NCBI GenBank assembly: GCA_013203355.1
Contig: JABMQH010000197.1
Coordinates: 1 to 49,994 of the forward strand
Length of the DNA stretch: 49,994 nt
Reading direction: 5' to 3'
From: Candidatus Omnitrophota bacterium
GTDB taxonomy: Bacteria; Omnitrophota; Gorgyraeia; JABMQH01
Part shown: piece after piece, positions 22,497 to 24,978 of the stretch
Position numbering within the stretch: the stretch's first letter is position 1
Layout: every line of letters starts with the position of its first letter
Made by a program: the position numbers and the translations under genes
The notes under the pieces: model-generated
What the model saw: the letters and a program-made list of their open reading frames with translations, nothing else
What the model was told of the DNA's origin: nothing
The model's database searches: none

Positions 22497-23153
22497 ATGG
22501 AATCAAAGCCATTGAATTTTGAAATAAAGGTTGGCATCTTTGTATTTTTGGGAATCTTGATAATGTTTCTTATAGTATTTTCGATAGGGGAATTCTATAT
22601 ATTAAGGCCCATGTATAATATAAAGGTTCTATTTGGTTTTGCAAATGGTATCGCTACGGGGGCACCGGTGAGGCTTGCGGGTGTCAATATTGGGGAGGTT
22701 GAAGATATAAGTGTATTTTATGATACAAAGCTGCAGCAGACGCGGGTTATGCTTGTGGCAAAAATAAAAAAGCACGCCAAGATTGAAAAAAATGCCATTT
22801 GCAGAATTAATACATTAGGCCTCCTCGGAGAAAAATATCTGGAGATTACACCGGGTACGGTAGAGACGGGATTTTTAGAGGATCAAGAGGCCGTTGTCGG
22901 GGAGGATCCTGTTCCCATGGAGGAGATCACCGAGACCATGAAAGAGCTTTCGGAGAATGCAAAGGCGATTACCGAGTCGACAACTGTGGTATTGGGAAGG
23001 CTTGAAAGAGGAGAGGGCACTATTGGAAAACTTTTGGTTGAGGAGAAGGTCTATAATGACCTCCAAGAGTTTGTCGAAGATATAAAGGAACACCCGTGGA
23101 AACTGTTGGTTAAGCAGAGAAAGAAACGGAAGGAGCAGGAGGATAAAAAATGA
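22497..23153 (+). CDS. mlaD: MlaD/MCE-domain lipid-binding protein
   Basis: Single-pass inner-membrane protein whose MCE domain forms a hexameric ring in the periplasm for lipid passage. The anchor is VGIFVFLGILIMFLIVFSIG (about residues 12-31). The MCE core follows: YNIKVLFGFANGIATGAPVRLAGVNIGEVEDI, with GLLGEKYLEITPG further on. The end is a charged helix (VKQRKKRKEQEDKK). At 218 residues it is somewhat longer than E. coli MlaD. It has an AAGGAGGA ribosome-binding site and overlaps yacL by 4 nt. Confidence 0.93.
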   Translation: MESKPLNFEIKVGIFVFLGILIMFLIVFSIGEFYILRPMYNIKVLFGFANGIATGAPVRLAGVNIGEVEDISVFYDTKLQQTRVMLVAKIKKHAKIEKNAICRINTLGLLGEKYLEITPGTVETGFLEDQEAVVGEDPVPMEEITETMKELSENAKAITESTTVVLGRLERGEGTIGKLLVEEKVYNDLQEFVEDIKEHPWKLLVKQRKKRKEQEDKK

Positions 23154-24181
23154 CACTCTTATTCATACGAATTTTCTTTATTGTCTTGAGTACCGCGGTG
23201 GGCTATTTTTTAGGTAATACTTTTATTATTCAAGAGCCAAGGTATGGAGCCATAGGCGCTGCAATAGGTTTTGGACTTGCTGTATTCTTAATATTGCTTG
23301 AAGGCTCTATGCGTAAAATCTCTGTGAGGAATTTATCGGCGGCGGTATTTGGTTTAATATTCGGTCTATTTATGTCCTGGGTGCTGTCGAGCGCAATTAA
23401 ACTCATACCCATGGACCTAAGGATGTTTTCAACCATCCAGATAGTGCTTACCCTTATCTTTTGTTACCTTGGTATGGTAATAGCTATTAGGGGAAAGGAC
23501 GAATTTAATTTGATTATCCCTTATGTAAAATTTATGAGGCAGGATCAAAAGGACGAGATTATACTATTGGATACAAGTATAATTATAGACGGCAGGATTG
23601 TCGATATATGCTCAACCAAATTCATTGAAGGCAGGCTGGTTATCCCGAGATTTGTACTGAAGGAACTTCAGCAGGTTGCAGATTCGGCGGATGCCTTAAA
23701 AAGGAACAGAGGTAGGCGCGGACTCGACGTGTTGAACCAGCTTCAGAAGAGCCCGCACCTCGATGTAAAGATAGAAGAAGAAAATTTTCCAGCTATAACG
23801 GATGTAGACGCGAAGCTTGTTAAGCTTGCGAAAGTATTAGGAGCCAAAATTCTTACAAATGATTACAATCTGAATAAGGTTGCCGAGATTCAGCAGGTAA
23901 CTGTCTTGAATATAAATAATCTCGCGAATGCCTTAAAGCCGGCTGTCCTGCCAAGCGAAGTCTTGGAGGTGAAGATTATCAAAGAGGGTAAGGAGTTCAA
24001 TCAAGGGGTAGCATACTTAGATGATGGGACCATGATTGTCGTAGATAATGCAAGGCATCTGATCGGCCAGACGGTTAAGGCCTTGGTTACAAGTGTACTT
24101 CAGACCTCTGCAGGGCGTATGATTTTTGCTAAAGTAGAAAATACCAATTATCATCATAGCGGCCGGAAAGGGCACAAGTAA
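23150..24181 (+). CDS. YacL-like PIN/TRAM-domain membrane protein
   Basis: Integral-membrane protein with about four N-terminal helices, a PIN nuclease-like domain beginning ILLDTSIIIDGRIVDI (about residue 139), and a C-terminal TRAM domain (KEGKEFNQGVAYLDDGTMIVVDNARHLIG). The PIN acidic residues are kept (LLDTS, the VLKELQ segment and ILTNDYNLNKVA). The arrangement and length (343 residues) match Bacillus YacL. In Firmicutes the gene sits between clpC/radA/disA and ispD, as it does here except that the Mla block replaces radA-disA. Probable role is membrane-associated RNA cleavage or signalling. Confidence 0.9.
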   Translation: MTLLFIRIFFIVLSTAVGYFLGNTFIIQEPRYGAIGAAIGFGLAVFLILLEGSMRKISVRNLSAAVFGLIFGLFMSWVLSSAIKLIPMDLRMFSTIQIVLTLIFCYLGMVIAIRGKDEFNLIIPYVKFMRQDQKDEIILLDTSIIIDGRIVDICSTKFIEGRLVIPRFVLKELQQVADSADALKRNRGRRGLDVLNQLQKSPHLDVKIEEENFPAITDVDAKLVKLAKVLGAKILTNDYNLNKVAEIQQVTVLNINNLANALKPAVLPSEVLEVKIIKEGKEFNQGVAYLDDGTMIVVDNARHLIGQTVKALVTSVLQTSAGRMIFAKVENTNYHHSGRKGHK

Positions 24182-24222
24182 TTTCCGCGAAATCATTTCT
24201 GTGATATAGCGTAGACAATGAA

Positions 24223-24295
24223 CCCCGCACCTTTGTATTATTCAAGGTGCAGGGAATAGGTAAAAATGAATTTTGAATATTTAAAAGGTGCGGGG
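24223..24295 (+). promoter_or_regulatory. Candidate RNA switch sequestering the ispD start
   Basis: CCCCGCACCTTT (24223-24234) is exactly complementary to AAAGGTGCGGGG (24284-24295), which holds the ispD ribosome-binding site and the first base of its GTG start. Within it TATTCAA (24239-24245) pairs with TTGAATA (24273-24279), giving one coaxial long hairpin. A competing short hairpin can form because AAGGTGCAGGG (24244-24254) also complements the first arm with one mismatch. The two folds are mutually exclusive, as in attenuators or translational switches. Ligand or trigger is unknown. Confidence 0.5.
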
Positions 24296-24298
24296 TGA
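24266..24298 (+). CDS. Putative 10-codon leader peptide overlapping ispD
   Basis: ATG at 24266 encodes MNFEYLKGAG, ending at TGA 24296-24298, which overlaps the ispD GTG (24295-24297) as GTGA. AATAGG lies 5 nt before the ATG as a possible ribosome-binding site. Translation of this ORF would move ribosomes through the hairpin and deliver them to the ispD start. It may be a chance ORF. Confidence 0.35.
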   Translation: MNFEYLKGAG

Positions 24299-24978
24299 AA
24301 AGCGAAGCGATAGTCGCCTCTGCTGGTATTGGCAAGAGGTTGCGAGCAAAGATAAGGAAACCATATTTAAACCTTTTAGGAAAACCCATCCTTGTTCATA
24401 CCTTACAGGCCTTGAGCAATTCTAAAGATATAGATAATATTATCGTAGTTGTGAACAGGCTTGATAAAAAGCGGTGTGAAAGAATAATAGAAAGATACAG
24501 GATAAAAAAGGTTAAGGCGGTAGTCGTGGGGGGCAGATATAGATACAGTTCTGTCCGCAACGGGCTTAATTCTCTGGATAAGGATACCGATATAGTCATT
24601 ATCCACGATGCAGTAAGGCCATTTATTGACGATGATATTATCGGAAGGTCGGTAAGGTGCGCTAAAAGGTTTGGCGCATGTGTTGTCGGCGCGCCGGTTA
24701 TCTCTACTATAAAAGAGGTAGACGGGACGTTGAAGATTCTTTCTACGCCGAAGAGAAAAAGGTTTTGGTTTGCGCAGACACCGCAGGTTTTCAGAAAGGC
24801 TTTGATTTTGAGGGCCTATAATGTGAAAGGGAACGGCCGTTTTACCCTTACTGATGATGCGGCTTGTGTTGAGCGTCTTGGGGTTAAGGTTAGAATGATA
24901 ATGGGGTCTTACAGGAATATAAAAATTACCACGCCGGAAGACCTCGCAGTGGCCAGGGGACTAGCAAAATGCGCATAG
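24295..24978 (+). CDS. ispD: IspD, 2-C-methyl-D-erythritol 4-phosphate cytidylyltransferase
   Basis: Third enzyme of the MEP isoprenoid pathway; it joins MEP to CTP, forming CDP-ME. The nucleotide-binding opening is SEAIVASAGIGKRLRAKIRKPYLNL, a slightly altered form of the usual AAGxGxRM. Other landmarks are VVVGGRYRYSSVRNGL, IIHDAVRPFI, FAQTPQVFRKAL and LTDDAACVE. The 227-residue length is normal. The GTG start is chosen because the protein begins at the expected point and an AAAGGTG site lies just upstream, though that site is also part of a stable complementarity. It overlaps ispF by 10 nt. Confidence 0.95.
   Translation: MKSEAIVASAGIGKRLRAKIRKPYLNLLGKPILVHTLQALSNSKDIDNIIVVVNRLDKKRCERIIERYRIKKVKAVVVGGRYRYSSVRNGLNSLDKDTDIVIIHDAVRPFIDDDIIGRSVRCAKRFGACVVGAPVISTIKEVDGTLKILSTPKRKRFWFAQTPQVFRKALILRAYNVKGNGRFTLTDDAACVERLGVKVRMIMGSYRNIKITTPEDLAVARGLAKCA

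Follow-up and report, generated by a model that had tools for sequence, protein, structure and literature searches.

Small interspersed repeats, often palindromic and mostly located near genes, include the pneumococcal BOX and RUP and the enterobacterial ERIC and REP; we know of no targeting of start codons by any of them. The element described below differs from these repeats in sequence, and no REP-type GTAG is conserved beside its arms among the copies listed; BOX and RUP are the subject of PMC3049150. Among named kinds, MITEs and the Rickettsia palindromic elements (RPEs) come closest (review PMC10969869). With MITEs the element shares its short length, terminal inverted repeats, lack of an internal transposase gene, flanking target duplication and dispersed copies. 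It differs in that its start-codon subfamily inserts only in start codons and restores a Shine-Dalgarno (SD) sequence and a start, and in that no autonomous partner was found at 20 loci. MITEAba12 is without a recognisable target motif, unlike the start-codon subfamily, and the term "start codon" is absent from the MITE review (PMC10969869). The RPEs are likewise palindromic, occur across many genes, which tolerate them, and carry a conserved frame for a short peptide, but they insert within reading frames and add a peptide, whereas here the start codon is hit and the protein is usually unchanged. The RPE class was rejected for our element, which occupies start codons rather than in-frame sites inside coding regions that would give a fused peptide.

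A second point of comparison is translational coupling. Coupling in which translation of the upstream gene melts a structure that masks the next start is an established mechanism (PMC6728339), and gaps of about 20 nt nearly abolish reinitiation (PMC10666635). Like systems that couple through a sequestered downstream initiation region or through ATGA termination-reinitiation, the element has an SD sequence predicted to be hidden by pairing with upstream translated sequence and a 4-nt stop-start overlap. In those systems the sequence is native, whereas here the entire device is a portable repeat between two genes.

The locus lies upstream of ispD in a window of 49,994 nt (the whole stretch of DNA that was analysed, from contig JABMQH010000197.1 of a Candidatus Omnitrophota bacterium), where Pfam profiles identify the products of the genes flanking the hairpin as PIN-TRAM (YacL-type), IspD and IspF proteins. 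The first-pass annotation had described this hairpin as a translational switch belonging to ispD. Our preferred reading, to which we give a probability of roughly 0.78, is that a dispersed palindromic element has inserted here and that the hairpin is one of its copies, which rebuilt the ispD SD sequence and start and brought a coupling leader; on this view it is not a conserved ispD leader. The features of the junction are collected in Table 1.

Table 1. Features of the yacL-ispD junction, in positions of the window.
Feature	Positions	Strand	Basis or remark
Upstream gene, YacL-type PIN-TRAM membrane protein	23150..24181	+	ORF; Pfam PIN and TRAM
Ancestral ispD start ATG	24218..24220	+	Now lies upstream of the insertion; start reads ATGAAAACGGAAGCG or ATGAAGACCGAAGCG in relatives that lack the element; hisD and nrdR alike
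Leader ORF opened by old start, MNPAPLYYSRCRE then stop	24218..24259	+	Family frame MNPAPS...EGAG then stop
TGAA, left copy of 4-bp direct repeat (target-site duplication)	24219..24222	+	Same 4 nt on either side in 89 copies, TGAA in 82
Palindromic element, 73 nt	24223..24295	.	Covariance-model match in own genome, E 3e-12 (window copy was in the model), and family copies
5′ arm CCCCGCACCTTT, anti-SD-like	24223..24234	+	12/12 complementary to 24284-24295; old-start frame gives MNPAP
Internal sense copy AAGGTGCAGGG, competitor of the 5′ arm	24244..24254	+	91% match; sense motif in 33/74 copies
MNFEYLKGAG then stop, leader frame beyond TAG 24257-24259	24266..24298	+	TGA overlaps ispD GTG
3′ arm AAAGGTGCGGGG	24284..24295	+	Pairs with 5′ arm
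Shine-Dalgarno AAGGTG in the 3′ arm of the element	24285..24290	+	4-nt spacer CGGG, then GTG; conserved in family
ispD	24295..24978	+	ORF; Pfam IspD
New ispD start GTG, made of the element's final base and TG from the right repeat	24295..24297	+	Sole upstream start in frame; IspD Pfam 3.9e-57
TGAA, right copy of direct repeat	24296..24299	+	Same flanking-repeat evidence

The pairing described in the first-pass annotation was confirmed at all 12 positions of the outer arms, and the inner extension of the stem was borne out: 24222-24245 and 24273-24296 form two 24-nt inverted-repeat arms that are 88% complementary and 27 nt apart. The 3′ segment 24284-24295 holds the SD sequence and start of ispD, as had been claimed. 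The RNA fold of 24215-24305 reaches -34.3 kcal/mol (z -6.7), and an equally low energy was obtained in 0 of 200 shuffles. The proposed competing partner at 24244-24254 does match the 5′ arm, but the energies of the two folds are unequal, with about -15 kcal/mol for the alternative hairpin, so that a balanced two-state switch was rejected. During synthesis this inner hairpin is predicted to form first, to last only until the 3′ arm is made and then to be displaced. The ORF MNFEYLKGAG does end on the ispD GTG, its stop codon overlapping the start, but rather than standing alone it forms the latter half of a 26-codon frame that starts at ATG 24218 and is broken by TAG 24257-24259, and the whole frame reads MNPAPLYYSRCRE, stop, VKMNFEYLKGAG, stop. 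The direct repeat TGAA that brackets the hairpin was absent from the earlier description. No intrinsic terminator was found at the element. A search of the window against Rfam gave no match at the gathering score, which led us to reject a known RNA family, and returned at E ≤ 1 sub-threshold matches only, mostly microRNA-like.

Comparison of the yacL-ispD gap among relatives decided against a device specific to ispD. The gap is 113 bp in the window, 3 bp in two relatives whose YacL is 79% identical (L040, L042) and 9 bp in two others at 71% identity (L013, L043), and it is short also in most other Omnitrophota. No arms were found in the junctions of the nearest relatives or in the other Omnitrophota junctions listed; missing arms beside retained flanking genes are an outcome that the first-pass annotation had itself named as refuting its proposal. 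Since the arms are absent where yacL and ispD are both kept side by side, and since unrelated gene starts carry the same element, the idea of a dedicated ispD leader or riboswitch was abandoned, and a product of the MEP pathway, one of the suggested triggers, has no support. What stands of the switch layout is its set of parts, namely an anti-SD arm, a decoy SD-like copy, an SD arm and a coupled short ORF, which recur in other copies and are not ispD-specific. The yacL-ispD gap of several other lineages (L023, L031, L035, L062, L080, and L097) contains different palindromic or repetitive inserts.

In a search of 384 genomes from one class of Omnitrophota, mostly draft metagenome assemblies, single arms as well as the complete palindrome were matched on both strands. 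The family has the form (C/T)CCCGCACCTT, variable middle, AAGGTGCGGG(G/A), and most copies measure about 45-78 nt. Copies occur in two settings, intergenic regions or RNase P RNA versus gene starts, the window copy being among the latter. A pattern of arms followed by RTG was present in 28 of the 384 genomes, and the reversed pattern, used as a control, gave 0 matches. Exact 4-nt flanking repeats were found in 66 of the 101 copies picked by arms and RTG alone, for which only the right TG had been required beforehand, and in 81 of these 101 copies a reading frame of 60 codons or more opens downstream. In a wider rescan, 89 copies had exact repeats of 4 nt (TGAA in 82, TGAG in 4, TGGA in 3). The old start, read from the unconstrained base before the left repeat, is ATG in 74 of them, GTG in 12, TTG in 2, and CTG in 1; the new start, formed by the last base of the element and TG, is GTG in 57, ATG in 30, and TTG in 2. 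The TGAA repeats and the mostly ATG old starts identify the start-codon context ATGAA as the target. Of the 101 copies, 31 have an upstream gene whose stop codon ends 1 nt 5′ of the element, as expected where an ATGA stop-start overlap has been split.

Each rebuilt start carries the element's own AAGGTG upstream, and the protein is unchanged from codon two on. The length of the element is 1 mod 3 in 54 of the 89 copies, and only the 22 copies with a length of 2 mod 3 could give an in-frame N-terminal extension. Unrelated genes with the element at their start include ispF, hisD, nrdR, alaS, ileS, topA, and the gene for ribosomal L9. These names were read by eye from N-termini, profile searches having covered the window genes, and by this reading the downstream proteins look like ordinary housekeeping genes. 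The window copy fits the pattern in its flanks, its old and new starts and its length (Table 1). Tandem copies at a single site (L266, L288, L291) suggest that the target, rebuilt as ATGAA/GTGAA, was hit more than once.

Filled and empty versions of the same site were found at two genes. At hisD, five loci of one genus (L344, L351, L352, L354, and L362) have the empty form aagttATGAAAATAATCC or one near it, and filled sites are seen in L342, which reads gggttATGAA[CCCC...GGGG]TGAATATAATCC, in L347, with a TTG start, and in L370, with a TGA repeat. At nrdR, the site is filled in L391 and L259/L328, a remnant persists in L402 and many sites are empty; L411 is empty, yet nearly identical to L402 around the site. 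A target-site duplication is thus supported both by the 66 of 101 exact repeats and by the empty hisD and nrdR sites. The hisD ATGA start site of L348 holds a different, unrelated insert, ATGAcgcgttttgcttcgctcagg...gtcaggaaATGAAAATAATCC.

A covariance model built from 19 copies was positive at E ≤ 0.001 in 44 of 292 genomes of the class, often with several copies per genome. The window genome (1.57 Mb, 206 contigs) has one good copy and one weak one, so that a high-copy repeat within this genome was rejected and there is no sign of present activity there. The weak match (contig 157 of G000, 347-439; L238), CCCGTCCCTTTT...AAAAGGGGCGGG, probably represents an intergenic relative that has diverged. 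The arms form conserved and complementary terminal inverted repeats across 189 distinct copies, the search having demanded near-matching arms. The outer pair is C-G in 109 copies and T-A in 49, and joint changes within the arms give A-T at position 4 in 11 copies and T-A at position 5 in 10, in a set for which near-matching arms were required; palindromic DNA may also retain such arms on grounds unrelated to RNA structure. No match was found in viral contigs, plasmids or phages, which led us to reject a phage or plasmid element, and the element was not found in any of 57 genomes from other Omnitrophota classes. Neither a mobilising enzyme nor an autonomous transposon with the same ends was found, 20 loci with the right ends giving short elements only. 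We found no earlier description of the family or of its start-codon targeting in the open-access papers searched.

In most copies the frame from the old start begins MNPAPS, and in many it ends EGAG, after some 26 codons, at a TGA overlapping the new start. Because the copies share ancestry, within genomes and as orthologues, comparisons with shuffled sequences overstate significance and are descriptive rather than strict tests: the frame is open through to the overlap in 27 of 89 copies (shuffled middles, mean 13.6, maximum 24), an in-frame ATG leader ending on the start occurs in 23 of 74 copies (8.4 in loop shuffles), and an internal copy is present in sense in 33 of 74 and in antisense in 1 (shuffles, mean 2.0). 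The predicted probability that the SD sequence is unpaired is 0.002 in the free window RNA and 0.51 with the 5′ arm covered; the medians of 65 copies are 0.001 and 0.555, respectively. By prediction, the downstream SD sequence is paired with upstream translated sequence, as in coupling by a sequestered start.

We propose that the element entered the ispD start codon within ATGAAAAGC, duplicating TGAA, with the old ATG staying upstream. It supplied the new start, from its terminal G and TG, together with its own SD sequence AAGGTG, leaving the IspD protein unchanged. The flanks, the empty sites and the many copies show this arrangement, and from these sequence patterns we infer the act of insertion itself. 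In free mRNA the 5′ arm is predicted to hide AAGGTG, and in many copies the old start would open a short leader that runs through the 5′ arm and stops at the TGA over the new start. Ribosomes from the upstream gene would translate this leader, open the hairpin and hand over downstream, and the element would thereby keep operon coupling across an insert of about 73 nt. Given the loss of reinitiation at gaps of about 20 nt, a 73-nt insert should break coupling unless the leader bridges the gap, something that a leader overlapping at each end would achieve. The TAG divides the leader of the window copy into MNPAPLYYSRCRE and MNFEYLKGAG, so that coupling would be weaker or two-step. As this anatomy recurs in other copies above shuffles, a role of the element in translation is plausible, and leader translation is a better candidate trigger than a MEP product.

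The strong fold, the competing partner and the coupled ORF behind the notion of a dedicated ispD switch responding to a MEP-pathway product all exist, but such a switch is very improbable: relatives keep yacL-ispD without the arms, many unrelated genes are preceded by the same element, the outer fold is far stabler than the alternative, and Rfam gave no match at the gathering score. It is a real, if doubtful, possibility that the same insertion history produced a near-neutral passenger, tolerated through its rebuilt SD sequence and start, with a hairpin and short ORF that have no regulatory effect. Seamless rebuilding would account for tolerance in housekeeping genes, and many leaders are broken, including that of the window. 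A passenger is harder to reconcile with a leader frame and an internal sense copy above shuffles, or with arm pairing kept through the double changes counted above, although selection on the ends linked to mobility could also explain the latter. It seems quite unlikely that the hairpin acts on the stability or processing of mRNA, a role proposed for other intercistronic palindromes, rather than on initiation. The intercistronic stem is very stable, and copies in RNase P RNA helices and at intergenic sites involve no start codon, as such an effect would allow, but the exact start-codon placement and the SD and start cargo of the subfamily would be left unexplained.

The reading as an inserted element with a coupling leader has points against it as well: just 27 of 89 copies have a fully open leader, and the window copy has a broken one; the search for a mobilising enzyme found none; the window genome shows no sign of present activity; and a second subfamily shares the arms but lacks the TGAA repeat. 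For the family as a whole, we incline to the view that it is mobile and targets the start codon itself, turning the old start into a mini-gene of about 26 codons, rebuilding SD sequence and start, keeping coupling and invading essential genes without damage. A mobile repeat landing on a gene start is expected to damage the gene. In this family the insertion point, the duplication and the element ends fit together so as to restore the start codon and leave the protein unchanged, and the element can therefore enter essential genes. Wrong start codons and missed leader ORFs are the annotation errors predicted for these genomes, and the element offers a testable natural case of a portable module for translation initiation and coupling.

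A second subfamily with the same arms is intergenic and lies inside a larger palindrome, GAATT..A[element]T..AATTC, without the TGAA repeat. Copies of this kind (L123, L130, L134, and L182-L204) include several beside hairpins of the form AATGAG..ATAACTTAC..GTAAGTTAT. The RNase P RNA genes of two genera (L125, 1464-1922; L181, 1311-1759) contain four element copies each, which in the Rfam alignment form the stem at the P3 position and fill other helix tips. In G364, two identical copies (C18, 6348-6420 and 8534-8606; L318) lie 2.2 kb apart before glycosyltransferase-like genes, probably as the result of a recent duplication.
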